Shown here piece after piece: positions 47,869 through 56,093 of a stretch of DNA of 64,000 bases (the first letter of the stretch is position 1; every line of letters starts with the position of its first letter). Below the pieces are notes generated by a model, which did no database searches, was not told where the DNA came from, and worked only from the letters and a program-made list of their open reading frames with translations. Source of the stretch: Taibaiella sp. KBW10 (GTDB lineage Bacteria; Bacteroidota; Bacteroidia; Chitinophagales; Chitinophagaceae); assembly GCF_003852495.1 (NCBI RefSeq), contig NZ_QAJI01000004.1, positions 269,718 to 333,717 of the forward strand. Reading direction: 5' to 3'. Both the position numbers and the translations under genes were made by a program.

Positions 47869-48564
47869 GTGCCAGATTCTAAGATAATTTTTCGCACTGC
47901 AGGGCAGGCAGACGTGTCTTATGCAACAACCATCATCAATGAGATGGAGCATAGTGCCCAAGTAAGGGGCACCGGTATTGCCAAACGGTCTCCCGATTAT
48001 ATTGCACAAAAAATGCTGGAGGGAAAGTCTGTCATAGCCCTTACGACCACCGGTATCTGGGTAGGCTTTTGCTATATCGAAACCTGGAGCCATGGCGCTT
48101 TTGTGGCCAACAGCGGCCTGATCGTCAATCCCGATTTTAGAGGCCATGGTGTCGCAAAAGAAATCAAAAAACAGATCTTTAACCTGAGTAAAACACTTTA
48201 TCCGCAGGCTAAAATATTTGGATTAACCACAGGGCTGGCCGTGATGAAAATCAATAGCGACCTGGGTTATGAGCCGGTGACGTATAGTGAACTGACACAG
48301 GAAGAACATTTCTGGTCGGGCTGTAAAAGCTGTGTCAATTATGAGATCCTCATGATGAAAGAACGCAAAAACTGCCTCTGTACTGCCATGATGTATGATC
48401 CGGAAGATCATTATACAGCCTCAGAAACCAAACAATTCTTTAAAGAGAAAAATAAAGTCCTGGCCCGTTTATTACGACTGAAGCGAAACAATATGCTAGG
48501 CAAACTATTGAAAGCACGCGCATTGAAAAAAGAAGAACGTAAATCAAAAAAAGAAATTTCATAA
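47869..48564 (+). CDS. GNAT acyltransferase, probable N-acylglutamate synthase
   Basis: A 231-residue GNAT protein. NSGLIVNPDFRGHGVAKEIKKQIF (~81-104) contains the acyl-CoA loop. A four-cysteine cluster (Cys152, 155, 169, 171; CxxC and CxC) suggests a metal-binding finger. The C-terminus is strongly basic. It heads the arginine operon, which lacks argA and argJ elsewhere in the window, so it most likely acylates glutamate. The start is GTG. Whether the donor is acetyl- or succinyl-CoA is not visible. Confidence 0.78.
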   Translation: MPDSKIIFRTAGQADVSYATTIINEMEHSAQVRGTGIAKRSPDYIAQKMLEGKSVIALTTTGIWVGFCYIETWSHGAFVANSGLIVNPDFRGHGVAKEIKKQIFNLSKTLYPQAKIFGLTTGLAVMKINSDLGYEPVTYSELTQEEHFWSGCKSCVNYEILMMKERKNCLCTAMMYDPEDHYTASETKQFFKEKNKVLARLLRLKRNNMLGKLLKARALKKEERKSKKEIS

Positions 48565-48586: not shown

Positions 48587-49786
48587 ATGAAAAAAATTGT
48601 TTTAGGATTTAGTGGCGGGCTGGATACCAGCTATTGCGCCCAATACCTGAGTCAGGAGCTGGGCTATGAAGTGCATAGCGTGATTGTCAACACCGGTGGC
48701 TTTACGGCCGAAGAATTAAAGACGATCGAGGCGCATGCCTATACCTTGGGTGTGGCTTCCCATACAAGCATAGATGCCGTACATCACTATTACGACAGCA
48801 TTATCAAATACCTCGTCTTTGGCAATTGTCTTAAAAACAATACCTATCCCTTAAGTGTAAGTGCTGAAAGGCTGTGCCAGGCCATACATATAGCCAATCA
48901 TGCCAAAGCAATACAGGCCGATGCCGTCGCGCATGGCAGTACCGGGGCAGGCAACGATCAGGTGCGTTTTGATATGGTTTTTCACCAGGTAATACCGGGT
49001 GTGGAGATTATTACCCCAATACGCGATCAGCAATTGAGCCGTGCAGAAGAGATTGCCTACCTTAAAAGCAAAGGCATAGCCATGGACTTTGAAAAAGCGG
49101 CTTATAGCATCAATAAAGGGTTATGGGGCACCAGCATAGGTGGTAAGGAAACCTTACAAAGCCACGGGATGCTTCCAGAAGAGGCCTGGCCCACTGCCTG
49201 TACCAAAACAGAAATGGAAAAGGTAACCCTGGAGTTTATTCATGGAGAATTGAAGGCCGTTAATGACCGGAATTTTGCCCATCCGGTGGCTGCTATTCAA
49301 TACTTGCAGCAGATCGCGGGACCTTTTGGTATCGGTAGAGATATTCATATTGGAGACACCATTATCGGTATTAAAGGCAGGGTAGGCTTTGAAGCTGCAG
49401 CGCCCATGGTGATCCTTAAAGCACACCATACCTTAGAGAAGCATGTGCTTACCAAATGGCAATTGCAATGGAAAGATACCCTGGCGCAGTTCTATGCCAA
49501 CTGGCTGCATGAAGGGCAATTGTTAGATCCGGTGATGAAAGATATCGAAGCCTTTTTTGAAAACAGCCAGCAACAGGTAAATGGTAAAGTCTTTGTTCAC
49601 CTCTATCCTTACCGTTTTATGATTGCAGGAATAGAGAGTGCACATGATCTCATGCACAATGCTTTCGGGCAATACGGAGAGATGAACAGCGGCTACACCG
49701 GAGCAGATGTAAGAGGATTCAGTACCATATTTGGCAACCAGGTAAAAATCTGGAATGCCGTAAACAACAGACCAAAACAAGACTAA
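48587..49786 (+). CDS. argG: Argininosuccinate synthase
   Basis: A 399-residue enzyme joining citrulline and aspartate with ATP. IVLGFSGGLDTSYCA is the PP-loop. VAHGSTGAGNDQVRFD and SINKGLWGTSIGGKE are substrate motifs. Length matches the family, with a clear ATG. It follows the GNAT gene by 22 bases and precedes argC by one base. Confidence 0.96.
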   Translation: MKKIVLGFSGGLDTSYCAQYLSQELGYEVHSVIVNTGGFTAEELKTIEAHAYTLGVASHTSIDAVHHYYDSIIKYLVFGNCLKNNTYPLSVSAERLCQAIHIANHAKAIQADAVAHGSTGAGNDQVRFDMVFHQVIPGVEIITPIRDQQLSRAEEIAYLKSKGIAMDFEKAAYSINKGLWGTSIGGKETLQSHGMLPEEAWPTACTKTEMEKVTLEFIHGELKAVNDRNFAHPVAAIQYLQQIAGPFGIGRDIHIGDTIIGIKGRVGFEAAAPMVILKAHHTLEKHVLTKWQLQWKDTLAQFYANWLHEGQLLDPVMKDIEAFFENSQQQVNGKVFVHLYPYRFMIAGIESAHDLMHNAFGQYGEMNSGYTGADVRGFSTIFGNQVKIWNAVNNRPKQD

Positions 49787-49787
49787 G

Positions 49788-50771
49788 ATGAAAACAATAA
49801 GAATAGGTATTATCGGTGGCGCAGGCTATACCGGCGGAGAGTTGATCCGGGTATTAGTACAACACCCGGTTTCGGAAATTGTTTTTGTACACAGCAGGAG
49901 CAATGCAGGCAAAGCAGTTACTTCCGTACATCGGGACCTGATCGGAGAAACGGATTTGTATTTCACCGATACCCATACACAGGAGATTGACTTATTGTTT
50001 CTGTGCCTGGGTCATGGAGCATCCCGGGCCTTTTTGGAGCACAATACTATAAAGGAACATATCAAAGTGATTGATCTGGCGAATGATTTTCGCATACAGG
50101 ATCAGGCTTTATGGAAAGGCCATGCTTTTATATATGGTTTACCGGAGCTGCAAAAGGAAAAAATAAAGACGGCGCAATACCTGGCTAATCCCGGCTGTTT
50201 TGCTACGGCCATCCAATTGGGTTTGCTGCCCTTAGCCGCAGCGGGTGTGTTAGGAGCCGTTTATACTACGGGAATTACCGGTAGTACCGGCGCCGGCCAG
50301 TCATTAAGCAGTACCAGCCACTTTAGTTGGCGTGCCAATAATATTCAAGCTTATAAAACGCTGAGCCACCAACACCTGACAGAAATAGGGCAGTCCTTAA
50401 AACAATTACAAGCCGATATCCCTGCCGATGCGGTACATTTTATACCCTGGCGCGGCGACTTTCCCAGAGGTATCTTCGTGAGTACACAATTAAAAAATGA
50501 TCTGTCCTTAGATGCATTATACACTCTATATGAACATTACTACCGGGAACATCCTTTTGTACACCTTAGTAAAGATCCCATCGACCTGAAGCAAGTGGTG
50601 AATACCAACAAATGTCTGATCCAGATTGAAAAGCAAGGGGAGGACACTGTCATACACAGTACTATCGATAACCTGTTGAAAGGCGCTGTAGGTCAGGCAG
50701 TACAAAATATGAACCTGATGTTTGGCCTGGAAGAAATGACCGGCTTGCACTTAAAATCTTTAGTTTTTTAA
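49788..50771 (+). CDS. argC: N-acetyl-gamma-glutamyl-phosphate reductase
   Basis: A 327-residue NADPH-dependent reductase. IGIIGGAGYTGGELIRVL is the nucleotide-binding loop, VIDLANDFRI follows, and ANPGCFATAIQLGLLPL contains the catalytic Cys. TGSTGAGQSLSSTSHFSWR is a substrate motif. It could act on acetyl or succinyl substrates. It starts one base after argG. Confidence 0.95.
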   Translation: MKTIRIGIIGGAGYTGGELIRVLVQHPVSEIVFVHSRSNAGKAVTSVHRDLIGETDLYFTDTHTQEIDLLFLCLGHGASRAFLEHNTIKEHIKVIDLANDFRIQDQALWKGHAFIYGLPELQKEKIKTAQYLANPGCFATAIQLGLLPLAAAGVLGAVYTTGITGSTGAGQSLSSTSHFSWRANNIQAYKTLSHQHLTEIGQSLKQLQADIPADAVHFIPWRGDFPRGIFVSTQLKNDLSLDALYTLYEHYYREHPFVHLSKDPIDLKQVVNTNKCLIQIEKQGEDTVIHSTIDNLLKGAVGQAVQNMNLMFGLEEMTGLHLKSLVF

Positions 50772-50781
50772 TCCATACCAT

Positions 50782-51927
50782 ATGAATTTATTTGACGTAT
50801 ATCCCATCAATCCTATCAATATTGTAAAAGCTTCAGGTTCTTATGTATGGGACGAAAAAGGGCAATCCTATCTCGATATGTATGGCGGCCATGCCGTGAT
50901 CAGTATCGGGCATACCCATCCGCATTGGACAAAAGCCATCAGCAAACAATTACAGGAAATTGCCTTTTACTCTAACTCAATTCAGATTCCGATACAGCAA
51001 CAATTGGCTGATAAACTGGGTCAGGTCTCAGATAAAAAGGACTACCAGTTGTTCTTGTGCAACAGTGGCGCAGAGGCCAATGAAAATGCAATGAAGCTAG
51101 CCTCATTTCATACCAATAGAAAAAAGATCATTGCTTTTAGCAAAGCCTTTCATGGACGCACTTCCTTAGCGGTAAGTGCCACGGATAACAAAAGCAATAT
51201 TGCTCCCGTCAATGAAACAGATAATATTATTTTCCTGCCCTTTAACGATGTGACGGCATTAGCAGAAACATTCGCTACGGAAGGCCATGATATCGCTGCA
51301 GTAATTACAGAAGGTATACAGGGTGTAGGTGGCATTAATATGGCCAGCGTACCGTTTTTACAGGCCATCAGGGCTTTATGCGATCAATACGGAGCACTAT
51401 ATATTGCCGACAGTGTACAATGCGGTTATGGACGCTCCGGTAAATTTTTTAGTCATGATTATGCCGAAGTCAATGCAGATATCTATACTATGGCAAAAGG
51501 CATGGGCAATGGTTTTCCCGTAGCCGGTATCATTATTGCACCGCATATTCATCCCAAACACTTTATGCTGGGCACCACCTTCGGAGGCAATCACCTGGCT
51601 TGCGCTGCAGCATTAGCCGTTTTGGAAGTGATCGAAAAGGAGCATTTGATCACACATGCTTTAGAGATGGGTAACTACCTGATGGAAGCCTTAAGGCAAG
51701 TGGCACCCCTGGAAAACGTGCGCGGCCATGGACTCATGATCGGCTTCGATGTGCCGGAAAGCATTGCATCTTTAAAAAAGCATTTACTGCAAAAGCATTT
51801 TATTTTCACCGGAGAGGCGAAACCCAATGTGATTCGTTTATTGCCGAGTTTAGCCTTAACGAAAGCAGATGCCGATCTGTTCTTAACCGAGCTCAGAAAG
51901 GCCATACACACTTTACAAAACACTTAA
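50782..51927 (+). CDS. argD: Acetylornithine-type aminotransferase
   Basis: A 381-residue PLP class III aminotransferase. YLDMYGGHAVISIGHTHP, NSGAEANENAMKLA, FHGRTSLAV and the PLP lysine in TMAKGMGNGFPVAG are visible, as is GTTFGGNHLACAAA. It transaminates N-acyl-glutamate semialdehyde to N-acyl-ornithine. Slightly shorter than E. coli ArgD, as usual here. It is within the operon, 10 bases after argC. Confidence 0.94.
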   Translation: MNLFDVYPINPINIVKASGSYVWDEKGQSYLDMYGGHAVISIGHTHPHWTKAISKQLQEIAFYSNSIQIPIQQQLADKLGQVSDKKDYQLFLCNSGAEANENAMKLASFHTNRKKIIAFSKAFHGRTSLAVSATDNKSNIAPVNETDNIIFLPFNDVTALAETFATEGHDIAAVITEGIQGVGGINMASVPFLQAIRALCDQYGALYIADSVQCGYGRSGKFFSHDYAEVNADIYTMAKGMGNGFPVAGIIIAPHIHPKHFMLGTTFGGNHLACAAALAVLEVIEKEHLITHALEMGNYLMEALRQVAPLENVRGHGLMIGFDVPESIASLKKHLLQKHFIFTGEAKPNVIRLLPSLALTKADADLFLTELRKAIHTLQNT

Positions 51928-51937
51928 ATATTTTGTT

Positions 51938-52912
51938 GTGCAAAAATTCACCTGCGTACAAGACATTGCAGATAGCGGACAGGACTTATCTCTGGCCATA
52001 AACCAATTGATTCAGGAAGCATCGGCTTTTAAGAAGACACCTTTTGCCCAACAGACTTTGGGTCTGCAAAAACGTATCGGGTTAATCTTTTTAAATCCCA
52101 GCTTACGCACGCGTTTAAGTACGCAGGTAGCGGCAGAGCAATTAGGATTGCAGGCGATGGTTTTTAATATAGGTAGCGAAGGCTGGACCTGGGAATTTGA
52201 AGACGGTGTGGTGATGAAAGGCAATACTGCAGAACATATTAAAGATGCCGTTCCAGTATTGAGCAGCTATTTTGATGTATTGGCGATCCGTACCTTTCCC
52301 GGTTTAAAAGACCGCCAATTAGATTATTGCGAATTTTATCTAAACCAATTTATTAAGTACAGTACCGTACCGGTGATCAGTTTAGAGAGTGCCACATTAC
52401 ATCCCTTACAATCGCTGACAGACCTTATGACCATTAGCGAATTCGGGCTTAAACGACCTAAGATTGTTTTGTCCTGGGCACCACATGTAAAAGTCCTGCC
52501 ACAATGTGTTGCCAATAGCTTCGCCCAATGGGTGACTGCATGGGATCAGGCCGATTTTATCATTACGCATCCCGAAGGTATGGAACTTGAAGAAACCTAT
52601 ACACGTGGAGCAAGCATAATCCATGACCAAAAAGAAGCCCTGGCAGAAGCAGATTTTGTATATGTCAAAAACTGGAGCAGTTATCGTGATTATGGACAAG
52701 CAATGAATGGAAAAGAAGATTGGCTATTACAGCCGGAGGATTTGTCCCGGACCAATGCTGCCAAAATAATGCACTGTCTGCCCGTAAGGAGGAATGTAGA
52801 ACTGAGTGATGCCTTGCTGGACAGTAAGCAAAGTATTGTTACCCAACAGGCCGCCAATAGGGTATGGGCTGCACAAGCCGTACTGGCACAAATATTAAAT
52901 ACCAATGGATAA
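51938..52912 (+). CDS. argF': N-acylornithine carbamoyltransferase
   Basis: A 324-residue transcarbamylase of the Bacteroidota branch that uses N-acylated ornithine. NPSLRTRLS is the carbamoyl-phosphate motif, HPLQSLTDLMT the HPxQ loop, and MHCLPVRRN the C-terminal HCLP motif. At the position that decides between acetyl (Glu in Xanthomonas) and succinyl (Pro in Bacteroides) the sequence has Ala98 (NTAEH). The start is GTG. It overlaps argB by 8 bases. Confidence 0.92.
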   Translation: MQKFTCVQDIADSGQDLSLAINQLIQEASAFKKTPFAQQTLGLQKRIGLIFLNPSLRTRLSTQVAAEQLGLQAMVFNIGSEGWTWEFEDGVVMKGNTAEHIKDAVPVLSSYFDVLAIRTFPGLKDRQLDYCEFYLNQFIKYSTVPVISLESATLHPLQSLTDLMTISEFGLKRPKIVLSWAPHVKVLPQCVANSFAQWVTAWDQADFIITHPEGMELEETYTRGASIIHDQKEALAEADFVYVKNWSSYRDYGQAMNGKEDWLLQPEDLSRTNAAKIMHCLPVRRNVELSDALLDSKQSIVTQQAANRVWAAQAVLAQILNTNG

Positions 52913-53687
52913 AATCACTATTATAAAAATCGGGGGCAATATCATTGATGAGGAAACGCAACTGGCCTCTTTCCTAAAGCAATTTGCACAGATAGCCGGG
53001 AAGAAAATCTTGGTACATGGGGGCGGTAAACTGGCGACCCGAATGGCAGACCGTCTGGGTATCCCACAGGAAATGGTCGAAGGCAGACGCCTTACCGATG
53101 CTGCTACTTTACAGATTGTCACTATGGTTTATGCCGGTTATATCAATAAAAATATTGTAGCCCTTCTACAACAATACCCATGCAATGTGCTGGGAATTTG
53201 CGGCGCCGATGCCAATATTATAAAAGCACATAAAAGAACATCTTTTGAAGTAGATTATGGTTTTGCCGGCGATATTGATACGGTTAATGTAACCATGCTG
53301 GTTCAATTGTTGCAAACTACGGAAGCTTTGGTGATCGCGCCGATTACACATGATGGGCAAGGGCAATTGCTCAATACCAATGCCGATACGATTGCACAAG
53401 AACTGGCTAAAGCTTTAAGTTCCGTTTATGCAACTGAACTGGTGTACTGCTTTGAAAAACCGGGTGTGCTGTCGGATGTAAACGACGAAACCTCGGTGAT
53501 TCGGGTATTGCAACCGGCACCTTATGCACAACTAAAAGCCAAGCGAAAGATCTTTGAAGGCATGATCCCAAAACTCGATAATGCTTTTTCAGCCGTGCAG
53601 GCGGGTGTACAAGCAGTACATATCGGTAATGCTACCGCGCTCGACGCATTGATAAAAGGCCAGTGTGGCACCAAAATTATGTTATGA
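52905..53687 (+). CDS. argB: Acetylglutamate kinase
   Basis: A 260-residue amino-acid kinase that phosphorylates N-acylglutamate. IIKIGGNIIDEE is the lysine-glycine loop, LVHGGGKLATRMADRLGI follows, and NTNADTIAQELAKAL binds nucleotide. It lacks a long N-terminal helix, so arginine feedback of the usual hexameric type is unlikely. It overlaps both neighbours (argF' by 8 bases, the M20 gene by 4). Confidence 0.94.
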   Translation: MDKITIIKIGGNIIDEETQLASFLKQFAQIAGKKILVHGGGKLATRMADRLGIPQEMVEGRRLTDAATLQIVTMVYAGYINKNIVALLQQYPCNVLGICGADANIIKAHKRTSFEVDYGFAGDIDTVNVTMLVQLLQTTEALVIAPITHDGQGQLLNTNADTIAQELAKALSSVYATELVYCFEKPGVLSDVNDETSVIRVLQPAPYAQLKAKRKIFEGMIPKLDNAFSAVQAGVQAVHIGNATALDALIKGQCGTKIML

Positions 53688-54790
53688 CACCCTCCCCGGA
53701 ACTATTACAGCAAGATGCCATCGAGCTGCTGAAAGCATTGATCAAAATACCTTCTTTGAGTAAAGAAGAGGAACATACTGCCGACCTTATAGCCGGGTTC
53801 TTACAAGCACGTGGTATCGAAATTATCCGCATCGGTCATAATATATGCGCCCGTAATCTGCATTTTGATCTGCAAAAGCCGGTAATCCTACTCAATTCGC
53901 ATCATGATACGGTAAAAGCCAACAATGGATATACCCTGGATCCTTATGATCCTATAGAAGAAGGTACGCAATTGTTTGGCCTGGGCAGTAATGATGCCGG
54001 GGGGTGCCTGGTGGCCCTTATTGCAGCCTTTATCTTCTTTTATGATAAAACAGACCTTTCCTGTAACCTGGTGTTGGCCGCAACGGCAGAAGAAGAAATC
54101 AGCGGTAGCGGTGGCATCACTTCTTTATGGACAAATGAGGTATTTAATGCTTATACCGGATTTTTAGAGCATAAAGTGCATTGGTCTGCGATTGTCGGGG
54201 AACCCACACAATTACAAATGGCAGTGGTAGAACGCGGATTGCTGGTGGTTGATGTACGGGCGACGGGTAAAGCGGGGCATGCAGCACGTAAGGAGGGTGA
54301 AAATGCGCTTTATAAGGCATTGGAAGATATTGATTGGCTACGGAATTATACCTTCGAAAAAGTAAGTGATTTCTTAGGCCCGGTGCAACTCTCGGTAACC
54401 TCGATAGAAACGCCGAATAAACAACATAATGTGGTCCCTGATACCTGCGATTTTGTGATTGATATCCGGGTAAACGAATGTTATGACATGGCATCGATCC
54501 TGCACATCCTGCAAGCACACCTGCACAGTAGGATCAAGGCCAGAAGTACCCGTTTACGTCCCAGCAGTATTGCGCTGAACCATCCTTTAGTCCTGGCGGG
54601 AACAGCAATGGGGCTAAATTGCTTTGGTTCTCCCACCACGAGTGACAAGGCTTTAATGCCTTTTCCCGCGGTGAAAATGGGTCCGGGTGATAGTGCACGC
54701 AGCCATACGGCAAACGAATTTATTTTTATACCCGAAATAGCAGAAGGTATAGCCACTTATATCCAATTATTAGCAAGAATAATCCTTTAA
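53684..54790 (+). CDS. argE: M20 family deacylase, probable ArgE
   Basis: A 368-residue dinuclear zinc hydrolase. LLNSHHDTVKAN has the first metal His and Asp, LGSNDAGGCLVAL the bridging Asp, and ATAEEEISGSGGI the Glu pair. The dimerisation domain follows. Operon position indicates removal of the N-acyl group from acylcitrulline. The ATG at 53684 overlaps the argB stop (ATGA); a GTG at 53663 is less likely. Confidence 0.92.
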   Translation: MTPSPELLQQDAIELLKALIKIPSLSKEEEHTADLIAGFLQARGIEIIRIGHNICARNLHFDLQKPVILLNSHHDTVKANNGYTLDPYDPIEEGTQLFGLGSNDAGGCLVALIAAFIFFYDKTDLSCNLVLAATAEEEISGSGGITSLWTNEVFNAYTGFLEHKVHWSAIVGEPTQLQMAVVERGLLVVDVRATGKAGHAARKEGENALYKALEDIDWLRNYTFEKVSDFLGPVQLSVTSIETPNKQHNVVPDTCDFVIDIRVNECYDMASILHILQAHLHSRIKARSTRLRPSSIALNHPLVLAGTAMGLNCFGSPTTSDKALMPFPAVKMGPGDSARSHTANEFIFIPEIAEGIATYIQLLARIIL

Positions 54791-54794
54791 TCGT

Positions 54795-56093
54795 ATGAAA
54801 AAACTTTGGCAGAAAGAACATAGTTCCGTTTCGGAAATAGTGGAAACGTTCACAGTCGGGAAAGACAAAATGTTTGACCTATTATTGGCTGCTTATGATG
54901 TACAGGGCTCTGCAGCACATGTACGCATGTTGGGCGAAAACGGATTGATGCCTCCGGAAGATGCCGATCAGGCCATTCTGGGACTGAATGCGATTGCTGC
55001 CGAAATTGAAGCAGGCAATTTTCTGATTGAAGATGGGGTAGAGGATGTGCATTCACAAGTAGAACTGCTGCTCACAAGGCAACTAGGGGATATTGGCAAG
55101 ATGATTCATAGTGGCCGCAGCCGTAATGATCAGGTAGCGGTAGACATTAAGCTGTTTCTTCGAGCGGCCTGTATAGAACTTAAGGAAGCCACAAAAAGCT
55201 TGTTCGACGACTTGATTACCAAAAGTAATCTTCATCAGGCAGATTTGATACCCGGGTATACGCATTTGCAAATAGCCATGCCTTCTTCTGTGGGTTTGTG
55301 GCTTGGTGCTTATGCAGAAAGCCTGGTCGATGATCTGGCACTATTGGCCACTGCCTATAAACTGTGTAATAAGAATCCTTTGGGAAGCGGCGCCGGTTAT
55401 GGTTCTTCTTTTCCTTTAAACAGAAAACGCACTACTGAATTATTGGGTTTTGAAACCCTGCACTGGAACAGTATTTATGCGCAAATGAGCCGGGGAAAAA
55501 CAGAAAAAACGGTAGCCATTGCCATAGGCGGTATTGCCGCAACCTTAAGTAAACTGGCATTGGACTGTTGTTTATACCTGAATCAGGACTTTGGCTTTAT
55601 CTCCTTTCCGGAGGCATTGACGACGGGCAGCAGTATTATGCCCCATAAAAAGAATCCGGATGTACTGGAGTTGATCCGAGGCAAATGCAACCGTATTCAG
55701 GCGATACCTAATGAATTGACTTTGCTGATCAATAATCTGCCCAGTGGCTACCACAGAGAGTTGCAGCTCACTAAAGAAATATTGTTTCCTGCCCTTACAG
55801 AACTGGGAAGTTGTCTGCAAATGATGCGATTGATGCTGCAAGAGATAAAAGTAACTAAAGATATCCTGAAGGCTGATAAGTACCAATACCTGTTTAGTGT
55901 AGAGGCCGTAAATGAATTGGTATTGACAGGGGTACCCTTCAGAGCGGCCTATCAGCAAGTGGGGAAAGCCATTGAGGCCGGTACCTTTTCGGCGGGTGAA
56001 AAAAGAGTCCATACCCATGAGGGCAGTATTGATCATTTATGTAATGAAGAAATAATAAAAGAAATGGAGCAGGTATTAGCATTGTTTCCCTAA
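54795..56093 (+). CDS. argH: Argininosuccinate lyase
   Basis: A 432-residue fumarase-superfamily enzyme releasing arginine and fumarate. EDVHSQVELLL, IHSGRSRNDQVAVD, TLHQADLIPGYTHLQIA-type motifs and the signature loop GSSIMPHKKNPDVLEL are present. Full length. It is the last gene of the operon, with an unusual hairpin after it. Confidence 0.95.
   Translation: MKKLWQKEHSSVSEIVETFTVGKDKMFDLLLAAYDVQGSAAHVRMLGENGLMPPEDADQAILGLNAIAAEIEAGNFLIEDGVEDVHSQVELLLTRQLGDIGKMIHSGRSRNDQVAVDIKLFLRAACIELKEATKSLFDDLITKSNLHQADLIPGYTHLQIAMPSSVGLWLGAYAESLVDDLALLATAYKLCNKNPLGSGAGYGSSFPLNRKRTTELLGFETLHWNSIYAQMSRGKTEKTVAIAIGGIAATLSKLALDCCLYLNQDFGFISFPEALTTGSSIMPHKKNPDVLELIRGKCNRIQAIPNELTLLINNLPSGYHRELQLTKEILFPALTELGSCLQMMRLMLQEIKVTKDILKADKYQYLFSVEAVNELVLTGVPFRAAYQQVGKAIEAGTFSAGEKRVHTHEGSIDHLCNEEIIKEMEQVLALFP

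Follow-up and report, generated by a model that had tools for sequence, protein, structure and literature searches.

The window analysed here, a stretch of 64,000 nucleotides from Taibaiella sp. KBW10, carries a transcarbamylase gene, argF', within a run of arginine genes, and the question raised by this locus is which acyl group its product accepts. In the sequence-only reading, an alanine (Ala98) was noticed at the acyl-specificity position that bears Glu92 in the N-acetylornithine carbamoyltransferase (AOTCase) of Xanthomonas campestris and Pro90 in the N-succinylornithine transcarbamylase (SOTCase) of Bacteroides fragilis, and it was suggested that the pathway may run on succinylated intermediates. 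The open reading frame (ORF) very probably encodes an N-succinyl-L-ornithine transcarbamylase of the Bacteroidota type. Observed here are the alignment, a signature of three residues, the match in fold, the operon and the absence of a match for the alternative enzymes searched; from these we infer the substrate, what each residue does, and the functions of the GNAT protein and the M20 hydrolase encoded in the operon.

As shown in Table 1, the ORF lies in a same-strand run of genes. It is a transcarbamylase of the AOTCase/SOTCase type. The GTG start is plausible because the N-terminus, MQKFTCVQDI, resembles that of B. fragilis SOTCase, MKKFTCVQDI. Among the solved structures searched with phmmer, the top match was B. 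fragilis SOTCase 1js1 (E 3.4e-87, 295.7 bits), and 2fg6 and 2g7m, further entries of the same enzyme, gave 295.2 bits. The entries of X. campestris AOTCase ranked below these at 160–163 bits, with the wild-type enzyme 3kzc at 161.1 bits (E 3.3e-46). That the protein is an ordinary ornithine transcarbamylase, which belongs to the same superfamily, is improbable in the extreme, as the entries of that enzyme reached no better than E 1.7e-20, compared with 3.4e-87 for SOTCase, and the Trp of AOTCase and SOTCase is present as W83 together with other second-substrate residues.

Table 1. Positions in the window of the arginine genes and of the codons for the three signature residues of ArgF'.
Feature	Position	Strand	Evidence or remark
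GNAT protein, ArgA2 type, proposed N-succinylglutamate synthase	47869..48564	+	weak sub-cut-off Pfam GNAT matches
argG, argininosuccinate synthase	48587..49786	+	best NCBIfam argG-type model 287.7 bits; TIGR00032 259.2 bits, just under cut-off 268.2
argC, N-acyl-gamma-glutamyl-phosphate reductase	49788..50771	+	TIGR01850 297 bits, cut-off 233.6
argD, N-acylornithine aminotransferase	50782..51927	+	TIGR00707 346.7 bits, under cut-off 410.05
argF', predicted N-succinylornithine transcarbamylase (SOTCase)	51938..52912	+	324 aa, GTG start; Pfam OTCace_N, OTCace
codon of Ala98, GCA	52229..52231	+	= Pro90 (B. fragilis) = Glu92 (X. campestris)
codon of Pro188	52499..52501	+	= Pro181 (B. fragilis) = Asn185 (X. 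campestris); coordinates calculated from ORF start
codon of Glu288	52799..52801	+	= Ile282 (B. fragilis) = Lys302 (X. campestris); coordinates calculated from ORF start
argB, N-acylglutamate kinase	52905..53687	+	TIGR00761 193.5 bits, cut-off 151.3
argE/dapE-like M20 hydrolase, probable N-acylcitrulline deacylase	53681..54790	+	TIGR01910 130.6 bits, under cut-off 217.6; Peptidase_M20 and M20_dimer over cut-off; start taken at ATG, GTG at 53663 in the ORF list
argH, argininosuccinate lyase	54795..56093	+	TIGR00838 341.6 bits, cut-off 279.5

The structure of the protein was predicted with AlphaFold2 from 28 aligned sequences (mean pLDDT 90.9, pTM 0.91). The best fold match of the model was the B. 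fragilis SOTCase entry 2fg6 (TM 0.93, rmsd 1.6), followed by the AOTCase entries (TM 0.87–0.90, with 0.88 for 3kzc), and the ornithine and putrescine transcarbamylases among the best 50 matches reached TM 0.73–0.78. In this comparison of the whole fold, knotted entries were the best matches, and the proline-rich loop HPRPLP of B. fragilis SOTCase aligns to HVKVLP in the window ArgF', where one Pro is found.

The proposed equivalence of Ala98 was confirmed by alignment with the characterised AOTCase and SOTCase. In the phmmer alignments, the segment VMKGNTAEH of the window pairs without gaps with IMDGDKPEH of B. fragilis and VMDGDTEEH of X. campestris, the last of which was read from the K302E entry 3m5c, where Glu92 is retained. 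Ala98 thereby stands opposite Pro90 of SOTCase and Glu92 of AOTCase, and the MAFFT alignment of all rows places the three residues in the same column.

According to a review (PMC4581275), AOTCase and SOTCase are told apart by Glu92, Asn185 and Lys302 in the X. campestris numbering, at whose places SOTCase has A/S/P/V/Q, then P, then V/I/E. The window ArgF', with Ala98, Pro188 and Glu288, agrees with the SOTCase rule at all three positions and with the AOTCase signature at none. When ten active-site positions were compared in the MAFFT alignment, eight agreed with at least one of the two reference enzymes, and the remaining two, Ala98 and Glu288, are both in the published SOTCase list. The same review names H176, R178 and R278 as the succinyl anchors of SOTCase; H176 and R278 are kept as His183 and Arg284, and R178 is replaced by Lys185, which retains the charge and is also the residue of AOTCase; in the rows read, Lys is the more frequent residue at this place. 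W75, F112, E142 and K236 of SOTCase are conserved as well. The mutagenesis described in the sequence-only reading, by which replacing the Glu of AOTCase with a small residue changed an acetyl into a succinyl enzyme, is right in outline as judged from the statements in citing papers and from the PDB titles. These titles name four AOTCase mutants (E92A, E92P, E92S and E92V), all solved with carbamyl phosphate plus an N-succinyl ligand, as well as the reverse mutant P90E of B. fragilis SOTCase.

Taken as a whole protein, the window ArgF' resembles B. fragilis SOTCase (1js1, 2fg6) in its fold, in about 46% identity, in Pro188, His183 and Arg284, and in four other residues that contact the second substrate. 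It differs in having Ala98 for Pro90, Glu288 for Ile282 and Lys185 for Arg178, of which the latter two count against its reading as SOTCase. With X. campestris AOTCase (3kzc) it shares the fold, about 36% identity, Lys185 and the common second-substrate residues, whereas Ala98 replaces Glu92, Pro188 replaces Asn185 and Glu288 replaces Lys302. If it is a SOTCase, the enzyme would move the carbamoyl group from carbamoyl phosphate to N-succinylornithine to give N-succinylcitrulline. A small residue at position 98 instead of Glu could make room for the succinyl group, which is longer and charged and may be held by His183, Lys185 and Arg284. The M20 hydrolase of the operon would then most likely desuccinylate N-succinylcitrulline, and ArgG and ArgH would finish arginine.

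The GNAT gene is followed by seven genes in the order argG-argC-argD-argF'-argB-argE-argH. At a threshold of 1e-5, NCBIfam gave no match for the GNAT protein. Its sequence and that of the GNAT protein of a Bacteroides-like genome, G238, share 53% identity over 184 residues. In G238, the GNAT gene stands after an argR-like gene and immediately ahead of genes resembling argG, argC and argD (these neighbours were named by eye from the sequence), and the ArgF' of that genome shares 92% identity with B. fragilis SOTCase. The order GNAT-argG-argC-argD is common to both loci; in G238, argF' lies about 26 kb off, whereas in the window argF', argB, argE and argH stand in the same run. In B. thetaiotaomicron, GapMind (PMC7311316) assigns argininosuccinate synthase to BT3760 and the aminotransferase to BT3758, and regards BT3761 as probably the N-succinylglutamate synthase; the last of these roles has also been proposed for a GNAT protein named ArgA2 (PMC9026213). 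Based on gene order and the G238 locus, which link it to BT3761 and ArgA2, we propose that the window GNAT protein is of the ArgA2 type and may stand in place of ArgA or ArgJ. The gene set is like that of the Bacteroidetes succinylated pathway with ArgA2 in these two papers. M20 hydrolases gave eight matches in the window's genome; therefore, the deacylase role of the operon member rests on its position.

No match to ArgJ was found in the window's genome by a search that was positive in 10 of 14 control genomes. Classical ArgA had no match over the cut-off in this genome, which is a weak negative as the model passes its cut-off in only one of the 14 controls; the matches under the cut-off, confined to the acetyltransferase part of the model, were to argB and to two short segments. 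Aspartate transcarbamylase was the only other transcarbamylase found in the genome, with no separate ornithine transcarbamylase. The suggestion of a pathway running on succinylated intermediates is thus supported by the A/P/E signature and by the ArgA2-type GNAT gene before argG, and, in the genome, by the negative searches for these three enzymes. The alternative that the window ArgF' is an N-acetylornithine transcarbamylase of an acetylated pathway, as the nearest NCBI family name says, appears very unlikely: NF003384, N-acetylornithine carbamoyltransferase, is the top NCBIfam model and Lys185 is common to AOTCase, but the score of 271.9 bits is under the cut-off of 288, none of the three AOTCase specificity residues is present, SOTCase is far closer (by the phmmer scores given above), and the genome has neither an ArgJ match nor ArgA over the cut-off.

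The GNAT gene and argF' were followed across the phylum. In the 105 genomes of the window's class, both were found in 98 and neither in seven. Outside the class, 71 of the 109 genomes with an ArgF' match had the GNAT protein, and no genome of the phylum draw had GNAT without ArgF'. When the eight weak ArgF' matches are excluded, 30 of 101 genomes outside the class had ArgF' but no ArgA2-type GNAT at E 1e-10, and ArgF' and GNAT are therefore separable across the phylum. These 30 genomes must either start the pathway in another way or have a GNAT gene that was missed. The signature was read in 29 of them and has A, T or Q at the first position, P at the second and V or I at the third (e.g. L056, L058, L059, L060 and L062 of f14, L081 of f19, L082 and L084 of f36, and L057 and L064 of f56). 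In the window's family, the starts of the two genes were 4.1 to 5.2 kb apart in 12 of the 13 other genomes of the phylum draw with ArgF', and far apart in the exception, G269.

A survey of ArgF' homologues was carried out at the three signature positions. The phylum draw comprised 392 genomes, of which 207, the window's included, had a match at E 1e-20 or better. Of the other 206 matches, 189 were read and 17 left out, namely eight weak ones (best E 1.6e-25 to 8.6e-21), presumed to be ornithine-transcarbamylase-like, and those of G064, G199, G246, G258, G270, G278, G341, G359 and G371. The family search gave a match in 50 of 60 genomes, ten of which were already in the phylum draw, and added 34 rows; six matches were left out (G392, G396, G400, G404, G406 and G420). 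The resulting 223 rows, one per genome, exclude the window's own row and 11 named-contig loci. Viral contigs yielded no relative, as none of the 47 stretches that fit a pattern was confirmed.

In the Ala98 column, the 223 rows had V in 78, A in 77, S in 36, T in 15, Q in 12, P in three, and I and G in one each; Glu occurred in none of the homologues read, and the X. campestris sequence was the sole Glu-bearing control in the alignment. In the rows read, residues other than Glu are thus the rule in this column. The Pro188 column had P in 216 rows and A in seven, and the Glu288 column had E in 85, V in 85, I in 50 and K in three. These counts are to be set beside GapMind (PMC7311316), which states that most Bacteroidetes use succinylated intermediates, that 69 of 70 complete Bacteroidetes pathways belong to the Bacteroides type, and that the acyl-specificity position is occupied by S, P, A or V in 61 of 69 carbamoyltransferases. 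The published genetics of Bacteroidetes reveals the genes required and does not directly reveal the acyl group used.

Several rows depart from the published rule. Thr, Ile and Gly in the Ala98 column fall outside the A/S/P/V/Q list, and the rows with Thr belong to families f25, f28, f43, f56 and f57 (e.g. L063 and L066 of f43, L057 and L064 of f56). All three rows of family f10 (L100, L118 and L121) carry the mixed signature A-P-K, which is succinyl-type at the first two positions and has the acetyl enzyme's Lys at the last. Contrary to the rule, Ala replaces Pro188 in six of the seven rows of family f4 (V-A-E) and in one row of f38 (V-A-V).

The residue Glu288 raises a further alternative, in which the window ArgF' takes either acyl group or a different dicarboxylic one, as a negative charge stands where the assayed SOTCase has Ile. 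To our knowledge, the B. fragilis enzyme is the one biochemically characterised SOTCase. Glu fills this column in the 85 rows counted above, and no enzyme with Glu opposite Lys302 is known to us to have been assayed. Such a relaxed or shifted preference is nevertheless highly improbable for the window enzyme, as Glu is already a SOTCase residue in the published rule (PMC4581275) and two of the three succinyl anchors, His183 and Arg284, are conserved. The more general proposal that the whole Glu288 subfamily, to which most rows of the window's family belong, does not share the acyl preference of the B. fragilis enzyme, for example by accepting both acyl groups or another diacid, can be given little credence; if it were true, the succinyl pathway of the phylum would not be uniform.

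With respect to the origin of Ala98, the collection holds five genomes of the window's genus, and the four others all read V-P-E. The nearest named relatives, Edaphocola aurantiacus and E. flava (69%), are both V-P-E, as are 47 of the 57 rows of the window's family other than its own; these 57 include ten named-contig loci, of which one is partial and one is probably a duplicate of genome G017. In the FastTree tree, which was used only near the window row because long branches meet in it (tool warning), the five nearest listed rows all have Val and Glu. Since the four congeners have Val, Ala98 looks like a local change, and is most simply explained as a recent Val-to-Ala change in this species rather than a mark of the lineage. 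A single T-to-C change converts a Val codon to an Ala codon, and GapMind (PMC7311316), citing mutagenesis, counts both residues as succinyl-preferring. A sequencing error was also considered; Ala98 is credible because two other genomes of the family (L005 and L040) likewise read A-P-E. Val98 accompanies Glu288 in many rows. Of the pairs for positions 98 and 288, 11 were on starred branches, with Glu288 changing the same way in about four, the opposite way in none and showing no difference in about seven (median p 0.125), and coupling of the two positions is not claimed, as the independent pairs on the tree are too few.

The window ArgF' is one more case of the succinyl-type enzyme already known in Bacteroidota. 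Ala98 is one of the published SOTCase marks and is common in the phylum; it adds little beyond what the phylum and the operon lead one to expect, because the homologues read have no Glu in this column. The locus illustrates cleanly how the acyl group used in arginine synthesis is predicted by a single residue. A second lesson is that names can mislead, as the nearest NCBIfam model says N-acetylornithine carbamoyltransferase, yet the window ArgF' scores under its cut-off, and the same misnaming is reported by GapMind for BT3717 in Swiss-Prot (PMC7311316). What the survey adds is that few rows share the reference enzyme's Pro at the acyl-specificity position (3 of 223) and that Thr, a residue outside the published list, occupies it in 15 of 223.
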